Of a DNA stretch of 64,000 nt, positions 27,108-53,255 are shown piece after piece (position 1 is the first letter of the stretch; the number at the start of each line of letters is the position of its first letter). Made by a program: the position numbers and the translations under genes. Source of the stretch: Saccharofermentans sp. (GTDB lineage: Bacteria; Bacillota; Clostridia; Saccharofermentanales; Saccharofermentanaceae); contig JAKSRK010000001.1 in assembly GCA_024403655.1 (NCBI GenBank), forward strand, positions 1 to 64,000, in the 5' to 3' direction. The notes beneath the pieces are model-generated. The model was not told the origin of the DNA, searched no databases, and saw only the letters and a list, made by a program, of their open reading frames with translations.

Positions 27108-28452
27108 GAGAAGAGGTGCTACTTCAGTATTTCTTGCTATTATCCTGTCAGCTATTATTCTTGTGGAATGCACTTATATTGGACTAGTTGAAGATCTGAG
27201 ATGTAATCTTGCTTATACCAGAGGAGTTAAGCTTCAGGTTGAGACATTCCTGTCTGAATACGACAGACAACTTCTTAAGACATATGGAATCTATGCTTTT
27301 AGAATCGACTGTATAGACGATTCTGTTTTTACTAATACACTTGAAGGATCAGGAATAGAGAATCATTCTGATCTGTTTGTATGCGGTATTAATAGCTTTG
27401 ATACTGATGATTTAAGAGATGCAATCTCTTTATATTATTCATACAGGTCTTCAGGTGTGATCTTTGACTATCTGGCTGATTATATATTTGAAGCAATTGA
27501 AGAAGTTGATCAGTATGGGATACTCGACAAGATAAGAAGTTTTACAAGTAGCGGAGCTTCTGATGTTCTAATGAATATTATTGACGGAGTATCTTCTGTC
27601 TCAGAAGAAATAATTCAATATGCATCATCTCTCGGGATAGAAGATATAGATGAATATCTTGAGAACTTTTCAGAGTTCATTGAACTATTTGATCAGCTTA
27701 ATAATAGCGGACCTTTAAGCGGAAGTTCTTACTCACCTAGAGATTTCAGCTTCGGGATAGACAGTGTTACCGGACTTTATAATATGATGAATTCGACTGC
27801 AGACTTTATATCAGGTCCTTTATTTCATGGCTTTGCTGTGAATTATGCAAGTTATAACTTCGACTGTCTTCTTGATGAAGATACTGCTTTGGACGGTACG
27901 TCTTTTTCATTCTTTCATGAAGGAGATCTTTTTGATTCAGAATATATACTTACAGGTTTAGAGGATAACATTGCCGGTGCGGCATGTATTTTACTAGTCT
28001 TTCAGTTTCTTTTTGTTACTGAGATTGTTAAGACTGTCTTAGATACTGAAAAAATGGAATGGATTTCAGTTGTTGCAGATGTACTTGCCGTACTTATAGA
28101 AATACTGACTTTAGGTGAAATTCCTGCTACCCCGGAGATATGTAAAGCTGTCATTATCTGCTATGTTGCTCAGTTTGCTGCGAAGTTTGATCTTCAGGAC
28201 ATTATCTCAGGAGATACTGTCACTTTGATTGAATTAGCGGGGATACCAGCAATAAATATAGGTTACAGAGAAATTTTGAATCTGTATATGAATTTTGTTC
28301 CTGATTCTGTACTTCTTTCAAGAATGACCGAAATCATTAACAGAGATTTTGATAATTATGCCTGTGGTATAAGCGTAGCTTCCGATTGCAATGGAACAGA
28401 AATTAATTATTCAAGGACATACGATATTTATGAGAATCAAATATATGTCTAG
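27085..28452 (+). CDS. DUF5702-like pilus-associated membrane protein
   Basis: In the 455 residues a basic N-terminus (KKNKRRGATSVFLAIIL) leads into one hydrophobic helix. The stretch FLSEYDRQLLKTYGIYAF follows, resembling the opening of DUF5702 proteins found in Clostridia Tad pilus loci. The rest is a long extracellular acidic region, with further hydrophobic stretches near residues 290-370. GGAGG lies 8 bases before the ATG. Overlap with genes on both sides shows a tight operon. The family assignment is moderate. Confidence 0.6.
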   Translation: MNLVKKNKRRGATSVFLAIILSAIILVECTYIGLVEDLRCNLAYTRGVKLQVETFLSEYDRQLLKTYGIYAFRIDCIDDSVFTNTLEGSGIENHSDLFVCGINSFDTDDLRDAISLYYSYRSSGVIFDYLADYIFEAIEEVDQYGILDKIRSFTSSGASDVLMNIIDGVSSVSEEIIQYASSLGIEDIDEYLENFSEFIELFDQLNNSGPLSGSSYSPRDFSFGIDSVTGLYNMMNSTADFISGPLFHGFAVNYASYNFDCLLDEDTALDGTSFSFFHEGDLFDSEYILTGLEDNIAGAACILLVFQFLFVTEIVKTVLDTEKMEWISVVADVLAVLIEILTLGEIPATPEICKAVIICYVAQFAAKFDLQDIISGDTVTLIELAGIPAINIGYREILNLYMNFVPDSVLLSRMTEIINRDFDNYACGISVASDCNGTEINYSRTYDIYENQIYV

Positions 28453-29440
28453 AACTAAAGGCGGCAGTATAACAATAGAGACTGCCATAGCTTTTACAGT
28501 AACACTTTGCTTCATATCTAGTGTTCTTACTGCAATAACTCTTTTAAGGACTGATATTCTTATGCAAAGAGCAGTTAGTAACACTTGTGAAGATTTTGCC
28601 CTTCTAACCCCTTTATCCGTCACGGCAGCAGACAGCGTAAGTACTCTTGCAAATGCGCTGCCTGACGGAACTTCTTCATCGCAAAATATAGAAGAGCAAT
28701 TATCTTCAGTAATAACAAGACTTGCAGGATTTGACATGGCTTCGGGGAATTCACTGACTGAAGCCGCAATGGATATTGCCATCTCTTCTAATTTTGAGAA
28801 TCAGATAGCAGATAAATATATTGAGTATAATGACGGTTCCGATTATTTACTGCCATCCTATATTGATGTAGATTTTGATATAGATCCAAATACTGCTTAT
28901 ATAACCGTTTATGTTAGTTATGAAGTTGATACTCTGGTCGGCAGAGTCAGTATGCACATTACTGATGGAATTCCTTTTTACGGTGACATGGAATTGTTTT
29001 TGAACGGACAGGGAGGAAGTGAGGAAAGTAGTTCGGATGAAGATGTTTGGAGTATGGACAACATCAGCAGAGGAATGTGGTTTGAAGAGCACTATGGTTC
29101 AAACCTGCCACATACATTTCCTGTCATCAATAACTTCGAGAACGGACAGGCTACTTCGTACCTGAGTATCGATCTCAACAGACCTTCTTATTCTGATAAC
29201 TCCAGGATTGAACGAAGAATTGGAGCACAAATTGAAGAACTGGCTGAATTCAACGGTGCTGATGTTAATATTAACGGAAACAACTATGTTATAAATGAAG
29301 AGGATATTACTTCAAGAAGACTGTTAGTTGTCGTACCTTCTAACTCTCCGAATTCTGCTCTTCAGACTTTATCAGGCCTTGAAGCTGAGGCTGAGAGATA
29401 CGGTGTTGAGCTTGTAATAGTACCTTACGGAGAATCATAA
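28430..29440 (+). CDS. TadE-like pilus assembly protein
   Basis: A 336-residue protein whose N-terminal helix follows GGSITIETAIAFTVTLCF, the Gly...Glu pattern of TadE-like proteins. It is then an extracellular acidic, Ser-rich region with a short C-terminal globular part (RRLLVVVPSN and ELVIVPYGES). The start is uncertain: ATG at 28430, or ATG at 28445 which would overlap the previous stop by 8 bases; neither has a good ribosome site. It is the last gene of the pilin-like cluster. No secretion ATPase or prepilin peptidase is adjacent. Confidence 0.55.
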   Translation: MRIKYMSRTKGGSITIETAIAFTVTLCFISSVLTAITLLRTDILMQRAVSNTCEDFALLTPLSVTAADSVSTLANALPDGTSSSQNIEEQLSSVITRLAGFDMASGNSLTEAAMDIAISSNFENQIADKYIEYNDGSDYLLPSYIDVDFDIDPNTAYITVYVSYEVDTLVGRVSMHITDGIPFYGDMELFLNGQGGSEESSSDEDVWSMDNISRGMWFEEHYGSNLPHTFPVINNFENGQATSYLSIDLNRPSYSDNSRIERRIGAQIEELAEFNGADVNINGNNYVINEEDITSRRLLVVVPSNSPNSALQTLSGLEAEAERYGVELVIVPYGES

Positions 29441-29491: not shown

Positions 29492-29524
29492 GGTATGGAT
29501 TATTTTTATGGAGGCAATATTCTT

Positions 29525-29758
29525 GTGAGAAGCAATTCTTCTGTAAGAAAACCTGCATTGGCACATTCTGATATTAGTGATAAGGCATCAGCTGCAGTTG
29601 GTATCGGAGAAGTCATGAAGAAAGCTCAAAAAGAGCTTGTCTTTAAAAGGATAACCTATGTCATATTAGCTTTGTTGTTAATAACATTTATAGCTTATGC
29701 TGTTGTCATGGGTTATGCTGAGATGCTTGTAGACAGATTCTTCTCATTGATGGGATAA
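29525..29758 (+). CDS. Small single-helix membrane protein, function unknown
   Basis: It has 77 residues from the GTG at 29525, which has GGAGG about 10 bases upstream. About 45 hydrophilic residues are followed by one hydrophobic helix (VILALLLITFIAYAVVMGY) and a short tail. I recognise no family. It precedes the TrpR-like regulator and secA on the same strand, with 7 bases to the next gene, so a shared transcript is likely. Confidence 0.5.
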   Translation: MRSNSSVRKPALAHSDISDKASAAVGIGEVMKKAQKELVFKRITYVILALLLITFIAYAVVMGYAEMLVDRFFSLMG

Positions 29759-29765
29759 GATAGGC

Positions 29766-30161
29766 ATGGCTGAATTTGACGATCATGAGCAGGATGCGCT
29801 TAATAATCTATATGAGGCAATACTGACTCTTAAGACACCGGAGGAATTACACAGCTTTTTCTCCGATCTTATGTCATATAACGAACTATGTTCGATGCTC
29901 CACAGATGGCAGATTCTTCTTCTTATCGATCAGGGTAAGAGTTACGAAGAGATTATTAAGGAATTAGCTCCACCTTCTAACAATGAAGATAATCAGACCT
30001 CGGATAAGGGGAAAAGGGATACTCGTAAAGGTAAGGGCAGAAGCAGTACTAAGGTAAGCTCCACTACCATTTCGAGAGTCAAAACTTGTTATAACAACGA
30101 GTACGGCGGATACAGAACCGCTTTAAACAGATTAAAGAAACAAAAACCAGAGGAGATTTAA
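29766..30161 (+). CDS. TrpR/YerC-like DNA-binding protein with HTH insertion
   Basis: The 131 residues match the YerC/YecD (TrpR-like) family of about 100 residues. LYEAILTLKTPEELHSFFSDL and LCSMLHRWQILLLIDQGKSYEEI correspond to the first helices. TISRVKTCYNNEYGGY corresponds to the recognition helix and end. Between them, residues about 69-97 form a polar, basic, low-complexity insertion (Asn, Glu, Lys, Arg, Gly, Ser). It sits at the turn of the helix-turn-helix, where homologues have only a few residues. Its target is unknown. It lies directly before secA, 1 base apart. Confidence 0.75.
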   Translation: MAEFDDHEQDALNNLYEAILTLKTPEELHSFFSDLMSYNELCSMLHRWQILLLIDQGKSYEEIIKELAPPSNNEDNQTSDKGKRDTRKGKGRSSTKVSSTTISRVKTCYNNEYGGYRTALNRLKKQKPEEI

Positions 30162-30162
30162 A

Positions 30163-32958
30163 ATGGGAATATTAACATCCGTTTTCGGTACACATAGTGA
30201 CAGGGAGATAAAAAGAATTAATCCTATTGTCGATAAAGTAATGAGTCTCGAAGAAGAGTATTCCAAGCTTTCAGACAGTGAACTTCGTGCCAAGACAGAC
30301 GACTTTAAGAGCAGATTAGAACTCGGTGAGACTTTGGACAGTATTCTTCCTGAAGCTTTTGCTACAATGCGTGAGGCTGCATGGCGAGTACTTGGTATGA
30401 AGCATTACAGAGTTCAGGTTATTGGTGGTATCGTTCTTCACCAAGGTCGTATCGCCGAGATGAAGACCGGTGAAGGTAAAACACTTGTTGCTACATTGCC
30501 TGTTTACCTTAATGCTCTTTCTGGTAAGGGTGTTCACGTTGTAACAGTTAACGATTACCTTGCAAAGCGTGACTCAGAGTGGATGGGTAAGGTCTACAGA
30601 TTCCTTGGACTTTCTGTTGGTCTTATTGTTCATGATATTCCTAATAACAAGCGTCAGGAGATGTATGCATGCGATATCGTATACGGAACTAACAATGAGT
30701 TTGGTTTCGATTATCTCCGTGACAACATGATTGTTCGTAAGGAACAGCTTGTACAGCGTGAGCTTAACTACGCTATCGTCGATGAGGTTGACTCAATTCT
30801 TATCGATGAGGCAAGAACTCCTCTTATCATTTCCGGTAGAGGAACAGAATCTTCCGATCTTTATCAGAAGGCTGATACTTTTGTAAGAGGTCTTAAGTCT
30901 TTTACTGTTGTTGAGACAGACGATAAGGTAGATATGGATGAGATCGTTGGTGATGCTGATTATGTAATCGACGAGAAGGCTAATACTTCTGTCCTTACAG
31001 GTAACGGTATCAAGAAGGCAGAGAAGTTCTTTGGTGTTGAGAACCTTTCCGATCCGGATAACCTTTCTTTGCAGCACTATATCAATAATGCCCTTAAGGC
31101 TCACGGTAACTTCCACCTCGATCAGCAGTACGTTGTTAATGACGGTGAGGTTATTATCGTTGATGACTTCACAGGTCGTCTTATGCCCGGTAGAAGATAC
31201 AGCGACGGTCTTCATCAGTCTATCGAGGCTAAGGAAGGAGTTAAGATTGCTAATGAGAACAGAACTCTTGCAACAATCACTTTCCAGAATTTCTTCCGTA
31301 TGTATTCCAAGCTTTCCGGTATGACCGGTACAGCTTATACTGAGGAAGCAGAGTTCAGAGATATTTATAATCTCGATGTTATTCAGATTCCTACCAATAA
31401 GGTTATCGCTCGTATTGATGAGAACGATGCTGTATTTAAGACTCAGAAGGGTAAGTACGCTGCAGTTCTTAAGACTGTTATTGAAGCTCATTCCAAGGGG
31501 CAGCCTGTACTTGTTGGTACAGTAAACGTTGATAAGTCTGAGTATCTTTCAAAGATTTTTACAAAGGCAGGTATCAAGCACAACGTTCTTAATGCCAAGA
31601 ACCATATGCGAGAGGCTGAGATTGTTGCACAGGCAGGTCGTAAGGGTGCAGTAACCATCGCTACTAACATGGCCGGTCGTGGTACTGATATTCTTCTTGG
31701 TGGTAACAGTGAGTTCCTTGCTAAGCAGGAGATGAGAAAGCTCGGTTACGATGATGATATGATTGATGCAGCTACTGCTCATAATGAGACAGATGATGAG
31801 ATTATTCTTGGTGCTCGTGCAAAGTTTGCAGAGCTTGAGGAATCATTCTCAGCTAAGATTAAGCCTGAAGCTGAAGAGGTCAGAGAGATTGGTGGTCTCT
31901 TTATCGTTGGTACTGAGCGTCATGAATCAAGACGTATCGATAATCAGCTCAAGGGACGTGCAGGTCGTCAGGGTGATCCCGGTCGCACGAAGTTCTTCCT
32001 TGCATTGGATGACGATCTTCTTCGTATCTTCGGTGGTGACAGAGTTACTAATATGTACAATACCTTAGGTGTTGATGAGACTATGGAGATTCAGACAGGT
32101 ATTCTTACAAAGCTCATCGACAGCTCACAGAAGAAGCTTGAGGCAATGCATTTCGGTGCCCGTAAGAATGTCCTTGAATATGATGATGTTAATAATATTC
32201 AGAGAACAATTACTTATGATCAGCGTCGTAAGGTTATCGACGGTGACGACATGCATGAGACATTCCTCAAGATGATTGAGAGAGTTGCAGATCGTCAGGT
32301 TGATGCTTTTGCTCCCGAAGGTGTAATCACTCCTTCTGAAAGATTTACTCTTGGTATCAAGCTTGAAGAAATCTTCGGTGAGATTCCCGCTGTTCTTAAT
32401 GTTAAGGATGAGCATTCAGAGCTTCCTTCTCCTGAAGAACTTAAGAAGAACATCGTTGATGATGCTGTTGAGGCATTAAGAGTTAAGGAAGAGTCTGTTA
32501 CAAGTGAGATTTTCAAGGAAGCTGAGAGAGCAATCCTTCTTACAACTGTTGACCAGAAGTGGATGGATCATATTGATGCAATGGATCAGCTTTCTACATC
32601 TATTAGAATGAGAAGCGTTGGTCAGCATGATCCTGTTGTTGAATATAAGATGGAAAGTGCGGATATGTTCGAGGAGATGAATGAAGCAATTCAGGTTGAT
32701 TCAGTAAGAATCCTCATGAAGGGTCATTTCTCTGCTGAGAAGAGAGTTGAGACTAAGTCTGCTGTAGCATCCATGACAGAAGGATCTTCCAGACCTCAGG
32801 CAAGCAGCCTGCCTACTGAAGCTCAGCAGGTACAGGGTGCAGCGCAGCCCGCTCCTTCGGCTCCTGTAAAGAGAGATTCATCTAAGGTAGGGCGTAATGA
32901 TCTTTGTCCTTGCGGAAGCGGTAAGAAATATAAGAATTGCTGCGGTAAGAACGATTGA
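30163..32958 (+). CDS. secA: Preprotein translocase ATPase SecA
   Basis: The motor that pushes preproteins through SecYEG. In the 931 residues the N-terminal DEAD motor has Walker A (MKTGEGKTLVA) and Walker B (VDEVDSILIDEARTPLI). The preprotein crosslinking domain includes ADYVIDEKANTSVLT. NBD2 has GTNVDKSEY-like and TNMAGRGTDILLGG motifs and GRAGRQGDPG. The helical scaffold follows. A Ser/Gln/Ala/Pro-rich linker leads to the SEC-C zinc motif, [18 protein letters not shown] precedes the ATG. It is followed by a terminator hairpin. Confidence 0.98.
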   Translation: MGILTSVFGTHSDREIKRINPIVDKVMSLEEEYSKLSDSELRAKTDDFKSRLELGETLDSILPEAFATMREAAWRVLGMKHYRVQVIGGIVLHQGRIAEMKTGEGKTLVATLPVYLNALSGKGVHVVTVNDYLAKRDSEWMGKVYRFLGLSVGLIVHDIPNNKRQEMYACDIVYGTNNEFGFDYLRDNMIVRKEQLVQRELNYAIVDEVDSILIDEARTPLIISGRGTESSDLYQKADTFVRGLKSFTVVETDDKVDMDEIVGDADYVIDEKANTSVLTGNGIKKAEKFFGVENLSDPDNLSLQHYINNALKAHGNFHLDQQYVVNDGEVIIVDDFTGRLMPGRRYSDGLHQSIEAKEGVKIANENRTLATITFQNFFRMYSKLSGMTGTAYTEEAEFRDIYNLDVIQIPTNKVIARIDENDAVFKTQKGKYAAVLKTVIEAHSKGQPVLVGTVNVDKSEYLSKIFTKAGIKHNVLNAKNHMREAEIVAQAGRKGAVTIATNMAGRGTDILLGGNSEFLAKQEMRKLGYDDDMIDAATAHNETDDEIILGARAKFAELEESFSAKIKPEAEEVREIGGLFIVGTERHESRRIDNQLKGRAGRQGDPGRTKFFLALDDDLLRIFGGDRVTNMYNTLGVDETMEIQTGILTKLIDSSQKKLEAMHFGARKNVLEYDDVNNIQRTITYDQRRKVIDGDDMHETFLKMIERVADRQVDAFAPEGVITPSERFTLGIKLEEIFGEIPAVLNVKDEHSELPSPEELKKNIVDDAVEALRVKEESVTSEIFKEAERAILLTTVDQKWMDHIDAMDQLSTSIRMRSVGQHDPVVEYKMESADMFEEMNEAIQVDSVRILMKGHFSAEKRVETKSAVASMTEGSSRPQASSLPTEAQQVQGAAQPAPSAPVKRDSSKVGRNDLCPCGSGKKYKNCCGKND

Positions 32959-51909: not shown

Positions 51910-53255
51910 TGGATATTAAACTTGCTGAAAGCTTCATGAAGAAGCTTATCGATAAGTCAAAAGATTACGGCTTCGAAGAGGCTGAGGCTTCTTTCTCAAG
52001 CGGAAGTTCAATGAGCATATCTATTCTTAACGGAGAAGTTCAGTCCTATGAGAGGTCAAATGAGCAGGGCGTGGCCTTCAAAGGTAAGAAAAACGGCCAG
52101 ATGGCAGCAGCATCCACAACTGAATTTACAGACGATGCCCTCCTATTCCTTCTTACAAATGCAGCTGACTGTTGCGATGTAAAAGATGACGAAGACGAAG
52201 ACTTCATCTACTGCGATCCTGAACATAAGGAGCTTAAACTGTCGCAGATAACAGATGCTTTCGAGAAGAATACTTATGCAAGATTCTCTGAGCTTGGACT
52301 TAAGCTGGAGAAGAATATTTTTGCCCTTTCAGAGGACATTAAAGGAATTGACCATCTTTCAATTTCCTGTGACAGAAGTCTTGATCTCAAGATCAATTCA
52401 AAGGGGCTTTATGCATATAAAGACAGTGACTATGTCGGCCTTATGGCAGTGGGAAGAGCTGAGAAGGACGGTGTTGTTAAGACAGGCGGCCACTACTGGT
52501 ACGGCAACGACATAGATAAGTTCGACGAAGAGAAATTCTTAAAGATTTTCTCCCAGAAGCTTCTTACAAAGTTCGGTGCAAGTTCAGTTCCTTCTGCAAA
52601 GTACAAAATATTACTTTCGAACGAAGCAGTAATATCTTTTATCTCAACCTTCATGAGTAATTTCTCATCCTATTCCATGCAGAAAGGCATGTCTTTGCTT
52701 GCAGGGAAGGAAGGGGAGAAGATTGCATCCGATATCTTTACTTTAAGGGAAGAGCCTATGTATGAGAAAGCTCTTATAAAGGTTCCTTTCGACTCAGAAG
52801 GCGTTCTTACTTATCCCAAATCTCTTATAGAAAATGGTGTATTTAAGACAGCTCTTTATAATCTTAAGACAGCCAATAAGGCAGGAATCAAATCAACCGG
52901 TAACGGGTTTAAGGGTATCGGTTATGCAAACCTTATTGTAGAGCCCGGAGAGAAGACTTTCGATGAGCTTCTTGAAGAGGTTGGAGACGGTCTTTATATT
53001 ACAGACTTAAGCGGACTTCATGCAGGAGTTAACGTTATTAGCGGTGATTTCTCATTGCTCTGCGAAGGCTACAGAATTGAAGGCGGTAAGATTACACACG
53101 CTGTTGAACAGATTACGGTTTCCGATAATTTCTACGATGTACTTAAGAAGATATCCCTCGTAGGCAATGACGTTTTGGCAGAACCTGACGGTGCAGGCGA
53201 ACTATTCGCACCATCCATTGTTATTAATAGCGTTTCTATTGCAGGTGATAAGTGA
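51909..53255 (+). CDS. pmbA: TldD partner protein TldE/PmbA
   Basis: The 448 residues share the TldD/PmbA fold but lack a HExxxH motif, as expected for the non-catalytic TldE half. Visible features are SFSSGSSMSISILNGEVQSYERS near the N-terminus and GLHAGVNVISGDFSLLCEGYRIEGG near the C-terminus. The ATG shares a base with the tldD stop. There is no separate promoter between them. Confidence 0.93.
   Translation: MDIKLAESFMKKLIDKSKDYGFEEAEASFSSGSSMSISILNGEVQSYERSNEQGVAFKGKKNGQMAAASTTEFTDDALLFLLTNAADCCDVKDDEDEDFIYCDPEHKELKLSQITDAFEKNTYARFSELGLKLEKNIFALSEDIKGIDHLSISCDRSLDLKINSKGLYAYKDSDYVGLMAVGRAEKDGVVKTGGHYWYGNDIDKFDEEKFLKIFSQKLLTKFGASSVPSAKYKILLSNEAVISFISTFMSNFSSYSMQKGMSLLAGKEGEKIASDIFTLREEPMYEKALIKVPFDSEGVLTYPKSLIENGVFKTALYNLKTANKAGIKSTGNGFKGIGYANLIVEPGEKTFDELLEEVGDGLYITDLSGLHAGVNVISGDFSLLCEGYRIEGGKITHAVEQITVSDNFYDVLKKISLVGNDVLAEPDGAGELFAPSIVINSVSIAGDK

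Follow-up and report, generated by a model that had tools for sequence, protein, structure and literature searches.

Is a repressor whose helix-turn-helix (HTH) is interrupted at the turn still a member of a known family, how widely is such an interruption distributed, and what accompanies it at the DNA sites that the protein reads? These questions are raised by a short open reading frame (ORF) in a stretch of 64,000 nucleotides from Saccharofermentans sp., called the window below. The HTH turn is usually regarded as intolerant of long insertions. The features of the locus to which we refer are the following:

28391-29440, + strand: ORF of 349 aa upstream of hisR, with a TadE-like start (by eye)
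29495-29758, + strand: ORF of 87 aa preceding hisR, SecG match below threshold
29766-30161, + strand: hisR (yerC), TrpR family, 131 aa, ATG to TAA
29943-29963, + strand: first HTH helix, residues 60-66 (AlphaFold2 model)
29970-30053, + strand: insert at the HTH turn, residues 69-96, 28 aa (FFxD-TISR distance; alignment)
29970-30017, + strand: variable linker of the insert, residues 69-84 (pN/pS 0.57; pLDDT below 50 in 72-84)
30018-30053, + strand: conserved basic arm of the insert, residues 85-96, net charge +4 (pN/pS 0.104; Fisher test against the linker)
30060-30095, + strand: recognition helix, residues 99-110 (AlphaFold2 model; TISRV identical in all 75 proteins compared)
30163-32958, + strand: secA, 3' neighbour of hisR (conserved order)

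Identity and fold of the hisR product

As judged from its sequence, the product of the ORF at 29766-30161 is HisR/YerC, the TrpR-family repressor of histidine biosynthesis. It matches PF01371 with 61.8 bits (cut-off 27) and, with 61.2 bits, exceeds the curated cut-off of TIGR02531 (HisR/YerC; 42.2); in both cases the best stretch of the match stops at residue 66-67, that is, at the HTH turn. The nearest solved structures, the HisR/YerC-like PDB chains 3frw, 3kor and 3g1c, are aligned as two separate blocks, one before and one after the insert. The AlphaFold2 model (mean pLDDT 77, from 6 sequences) has pLDDT values below 50 at residues 72-84 and 86-93, and shows the six-helix TrpR fold with its HTH at moderate scores: the best structural matches are HisR-like chains (Z 6.5-7.9; for 3frw, Z 7.9, rmsd 4.9 and 89 aligned), followed by TrpR (Z 5.4-5.9; for 1tro, Z 5.4, rmsd 5.6 and 92 aligned), and the best Foldseek E-value is 2.1e-3. 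The first-pass annotation had predicted that the insert would pull the two HTH helices apart; the model keeps both of them, at residues 60-66 and 99-110.

R47 and R104 are invariant across the 75 HisR proteins compared, and we take them to be the equivalents of Arg54 and Arg84 of E. coli TrpR, so that effector sensing is probably kept in HisR with the insert; histidine would still be the corepressor. At residues 29-48 (29850-29911, + strand), H29, H46 and W48 are found in 42, 45 and 48 of 48 proteins with the insert, in place of Y, Q and L/F in HisR without it, and since these residues lie near the presumed effector site, effector sensing may differ in the insert clade.

According to PMC9413887, yerC codes for the histidine repressor HisR, with the consensus operator cacTTTAnnnnnnTAAAgtg in most lineages, DNA binding by the Ruminococcus gnavus protein depends on histidine, and the HTH turn is highly conserved. 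A short turn and a length below 100 aa are given there as typical of the family, and we do not treat them as defining HisR. The window protein has neither, being 131 aa long with a 28-aa insert, and we file it as a derived member of the family because in 3 of the 53 matched genomes of its genus a HisR of the ordinary kind precedes the same secA.

The FFxD-TISR distance is 70 residues in the window protein, against 42 in proteins without the insert. An in-frame insert at the turn with conserved flanks, as the annotation had described, is thereby confirmed, its exact extent being 28 aa (residues 69-96) instead of about 29 (69-97).

Distribution, history and parts of the insert

An order-wide search gave a HisR match in 113 of 148 genomes. 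Within the genus, the match was broken or gapped at the same turn in 50 of 53 matched genomes and ungapped in three (G062, G080 and G149), and outside the genus none of the 60 matched genomes of the order showed a gap longer than one residue, one of them (G104) being cut by a contig end. A frameshift or an assembly artefact is rejected by the 50 genomes, and the comparison of orthologues that had been proposed earlier places the insert well beyond this assembly. Class-wide, HisR was matched in 275 of 391 genomes. No gapped HisR occurred outside the genus among the strongest matches listed, down to E 1.3e-39, or in 40 class genomes that were re-examined, the weakest included (three of these yielded no more than partial matches, in reading frames of some 345 aa), and independent insertions at that turn were likewise absent from both sets. 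For class genomes whose matches were of intermediate strength, with E about 1e-39 to 1e-31, the judgement relied on the E-value only; the strongest gapped HisR match within the genus has E 3.5e-18. The insert is consequently lineage-wide within one genus of Clostridia.

We read 48 insert-bearing proteins in full, G151 and G140 being left out of all counts that follow, and found insert lengths of 6, 8-10, 13, 16-17, 23, 25-30, 34 and 38 aa. The insert has two parts, a variable linker and then a conserved basic arm constrained like the recognition helix. Pooled over near relatives, pN/pS was 0.570 for the linker and 0.104 for the arm (the last 12 residues), and with the same pooling it was 0.098 for the recognition helix and C-terminus and 0.076 for the core, the within-cluster pairs behind these values not being independent of each other. 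In 11 near pairs, chosen by hand and possibly sharing branches, the arm had 19 nonsynonymous and 50 synonymous changes, the corresponding numbers for the linker being 118 and 71 (Fisher p 6e-7); in the same pairs the arm and the recognition helix gave p 0.21. The last 12 residues carry a net charge of +3 to +5 in inserts of at least 16 aa, except for G076 (+1), and of 0 to +1 in inserts of 6-13 aa. The expectation of a variable sequence at a constant position is therefore borne out by the first part of the insert, and fails for the last 12 residues, which are conserved.

On the tree of the HisR core, the insert clade has a support of 100/100 and a very long stem, which the midpoint root divides into 3.16 and 1.47 changes per column (from few columns); on the SecA tree the stem of the genus is 0.2. 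The same HisR stem carries a change from T to S and one from A to T in the recognition helix, a change from S/T/A to E at residue 61, and the loss of the K-x-K/R-D start. A single clade of insert-bearing genomes is not rejected by SecA (p-AU 0.468). In the best SecA tree, G013 and G021 fall outside the trio without the insert, with weak support (83/72), so that a later loss of the insert in this trio is possible.

The gene secA follows hisR on the same strand in all 48 genomes with the insert and in 23 of 27 without it (71 of 75 in all), the four exceptions all belonging to family f2. Since this order is the same with or without the insert, the insert-type hisR most likely diverged in place. 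Upstream of hisR, a homologue of the 349-aa ORF was found in 46 of 48 genomes with the insert and in 21 of 27 without it; the C-terminus of this ORF gives a match just below threshold to PF21111, a CDI-toxin nuclease-like domain (26.2 bits, cut-off 27). The 87-aa ORF, adjacent to hisR-secA, has homologues at hisR in 40 of 48 and 4 of 27 genomes, respectively, and its match to SecG is also sub-threshold (19.6 bits, cut-off 29.2).

The his operator in genomes with and without the insert

Upstream of hisZ-hisG-hisD, the window genome has CTTTAGTTGACTAAAG, a site of the TTTA-n6-TAAA type that marks HisR operators, just downstream of a promoter-like TTGACA/TATAAT pair (by eye). All 39 genomes of the genus that were searched have hisG, and 29 of them contain CTTTAGTnnACTAAAG, in 34 places; 33 of these are near hisG and the remaining one is in G004. 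The same pattern read backwards, as a control, matched in 2 of the 39.

For the comparison we took one operator per genome, that with the fewest mismatches and nearest to the gene, which gave 42 operators with the insert and 35 without it. Left out were G097, with no usable site, and G010, G016 and G061, in which HisR had not been read; the irregular operators of G149 and of three other no-insert genomes (genus or order) were kept in the counts, and for 13 of the 35 the ungapped status of HisR comes from the order-wide matches alone. The two sets differ in the centre of the operator. Position -3 holds 1.72 bit of information in the insert operators and 0.04 bit in the others, and G stands on both sides at -3 in 36 of 40 insert rows on the SecA tree and in 0 of 18 no-insert rows; the four exceptions, for the site used, are G150, G148, G014 and G065. 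At -2 the values are 1.25 bit (T) with the insert and 1.04 bit (C) without it, and at -9 they are 0.16 and 0.85 bit.

The surroundings of the operators differ as well. Outward half-sites at 8 bp accompany 34 of the 35 no-insert operators and 7 of the 42 insert operators. Counted by flanks, with at most one mismatch, 59 of 70 no-insert flanks have a half-site at 8 bp, the next offset being 16 bp with 8, and 7 of 84 insert flanks have one at 8 bp, which is not above some other offsets (up to 11). An exact left tandem half-site is retained in six genomes of a single clade, whose inserts measure 13-27 aa (G150, G117, G030, G148, G012 and G014), and G013 has a tandem half-site with a mismatch. In other orders, the 8-bp array was present in all 22 no-insert operators; of their 44 flanks, 28 carry a half-site at 8 bp, 16 carry one at 16 bp, and at most 5 do so at any other offset; these loci are the 30 best hisG matches and not a random draw, four genomes (G228, G384, G323 and G373) were taken as lacking the insert on E-values, and G365 had no site. 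Half-sites of the form CTTTA/TAAAG at 8 bp (and 16 bp) can be read in individual no-insert his operons, for instance at L083, L085 and L088 and at the class loci L195-L220. Operators without the insert thus have a variable centre, and those with the insert are mostly solitary palindromes of the form CTTTAGTnnACTAAAG.

The association between insert and operator is backed by one supported independent pair, or two when all branches are used, and therefore amounts to about one evolutionary event. Within the insert genomes, T stands at -2 on both sides in 26 of 32 with inserts of at least 20 aa and in 1 of 8 with shorter ones; in random pairings a median of 2 of 3 independent pairs agreed and none disagreed, which is not significant. 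Such a pairing of long inserts with T at -2 would fit an arm acting near the operator centre.

In 23 of the 42 insert genomes there is a further site, mismatched at no more than one position, at a distance of 17 bp (4 genomes), 49 bp (1), 53 bp (15) or 54 bp (3). The palindrome at 53-54 bp lies upstream in 18 of the 42, for instance at L061 (G033), L082 (G009) and L124 (G031), so that two sites would bracket the his promoter, as seen by eye in G033 and G009.

Autoregulation of hisR was also considered and rejected: in the window, CTTTAGTnnACTAAAG with up to three mismatches gave 2 matches against 5.2 expected and CTTTAn6TAAAG with up to one mismatch gave 7 against 4.9 expected, the nearest of each kind lying kilobases from hisR. 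An exact CTTTAn6TAAAG with a different centre stands at 52407-52422 (+ strand); given 7 matches against 4.9, it is possibly due to chance.

Explanations, and comparison with known systems

The insert, its two-part constraint, the common locus and the operator difference are computed directly from the genomes, and the binding mode of HisR with the insert seems to have changed with them. The explanation that we favour, with a probability of about 60%, is that the basic arm supplies further DNA contacts, HisR having left TrpR-like tandem binding for isolated palindromes whose centre is fixed. A disordered insert took the place of the tight turn of the HTH in one clade of Clostridia; in most of the species it begins as a free linker and ends in a basic arm, attached where the recognition helix starts. 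The two HTH helices would still pack as in TrpR, with the arm lying on the operator and adding contacts. HisR without the insert would bind as side-by-side dimers on 8-bp half-sites, the tandem mode of TrpR, and the derived protein as single dimers on CTTTAGTnnACTAAAG beside the hisZ promoter. Loss of the turn and the changes linked to it may have shifted reading to the centre of one palindrome, away from the outer bases and the adjacent dimers; there the basic arm, gained later or lost in some lines, would strengthen the contact. That the insert could add DNA contacts had been suggested in the first-pass annotation; purifying selection on the arm and the changed operator fit this suggestion, the contact itself being what we infer from them. 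A wider formulation is more doubtful, and we offer it tentatively: that an arm splitting the HTH took over the stability and specificity of cooperative dimers as the 8-bp array gave way to single fixed-centre palindromes, the series of 0-38 residues in one genus preserving the steps.

Inserts of 6-10 aa, with a net charge of 0 to +1 and hence no basic arm, already accompany G at -3, which counts against a simple account in which the arm causes the operator difference. Also against it are the clade of six insert genomes that retains a tandem half-site, the four insert operators lacking the two-sided G at -3, and the fact that the association amounts to about one event. The short inserts favour the principal alternative, which we consider unlikely: that the insert is a tolerated disordered loop and that the new operator results from other substitutions on the same stem (in the recognition helix, at the start of the first HTH helix, or by loss of the basic N-terminal segment), a stem on which many HisR positions were indeed fixed differently. 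Against this alternative, the arm is as constrained as the recognition helix. The change from A to T is unnecessary, since G013, G021 and G065 keep A and yet have an operator with the new centre; S before A/T is insufficient, being present in G050, G044, G038 and G055 without the insert and without the two-sided G at -3; and the lysine after SRV is likewise insufficient (G128, G122, G114 and G090). These exceptions disfavour single recognition-helix substitutions as the sole cause; in the reading that we favour, the arm, rather than the same-stem changes, would be what altered the operator.

Instead of reading the operator, the arm might bind DNA of any sequence, RNA polymerase or some other protein. 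It is short, basic and disordered and would act beside a promoter, with the operator just downstream of the -10 box, but only two residues separate it from the recognition helix and the operator centre differs in the same clade, so that we regard this possibility as improbable. Replacement of hisR by an insert-type gene from elsewhere, which the great length of the HisR stem relative to that of SecA might suggest, is very improbable, since secA follows hisR in both kinds and no gapped HisR was found outside the genus among the matches listed from the 391 class genomes or in the 40 weak genomes re-examined.

The reading preferred here, of an arm that adds contacts at a fixed-centre palindrome, can be set against three known systems. 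The first is AT-hooks and similar minor-groove arms, in which a short, disordered arm rich in Gly, Arg and Lys stands beside a DNA-binding domain. The HisR arm is likewise short, Gly/Arg/Lys-rich and disordered, but it lies inside the HTH and not at a terminus; moreover, the GRP core that is the mark of the AT-hook is missing from all 48 inserts, and an identity with it was rejected.

The second is E. coli TrpR (1tro; tandem form 1trr). The fold is alike (Z 5.4-5.9), and the TrpR operator TGTAcTnGTnnACnAgTACA and that of the insert clade have GTnnAC in common at the centre; TrpR has no insert at the turn, however, and its effector differs. As described in PMC8745587, TrpR binds some operators as cooperative tandem pairs of dimers, and the 8-bp array of HisR operators without the insert resembles such a pair. 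This suggests that in other Clostridia the operators of HisR are built, like those of TrpR, as arrays of half-sites spaced by 8 bp, and are not only the 20-bp palindrome given in PMC9413887. The words "insertion" and "direct repeat" are absent from the main text of that paper, its uses of "tandem" and "half-site" relate to matters other than arrays of HisR half-sites, and a search of the accessible literature gave no relevant account of HTH-turn inserts or of 8-bp half-sites in TrpR.

The third is HisR/YerC itself (TIGR02531; PMC9413887), with which the window protein shares the family match, a TTTA-n6-TAAA operator upstream of the his operon and a conserved recognition helix, and from which it differs by 28 residues at an otherwise highly conserved HTH turn. 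In the operators of the insert clade the centre is fixed, and the outer cac/gtg and the 8-bp half-sites are mostly lost. The HisR identity, the two parts of the insert and the accompanying operator difference had been overlooked in the earlier annotation. Within a single genus, orthologues at a shared locus carry 0, 6-10, 13-17 or 23-38 additional residues, and the operator of each can be read. The joint change of a transcription factor and its sites is therefore directly testable, in what amounts to a natural experiment in the retargeting of a repressor. What the locus presents is a known family in an altered form, HisR with a long insert at the HTH turn.
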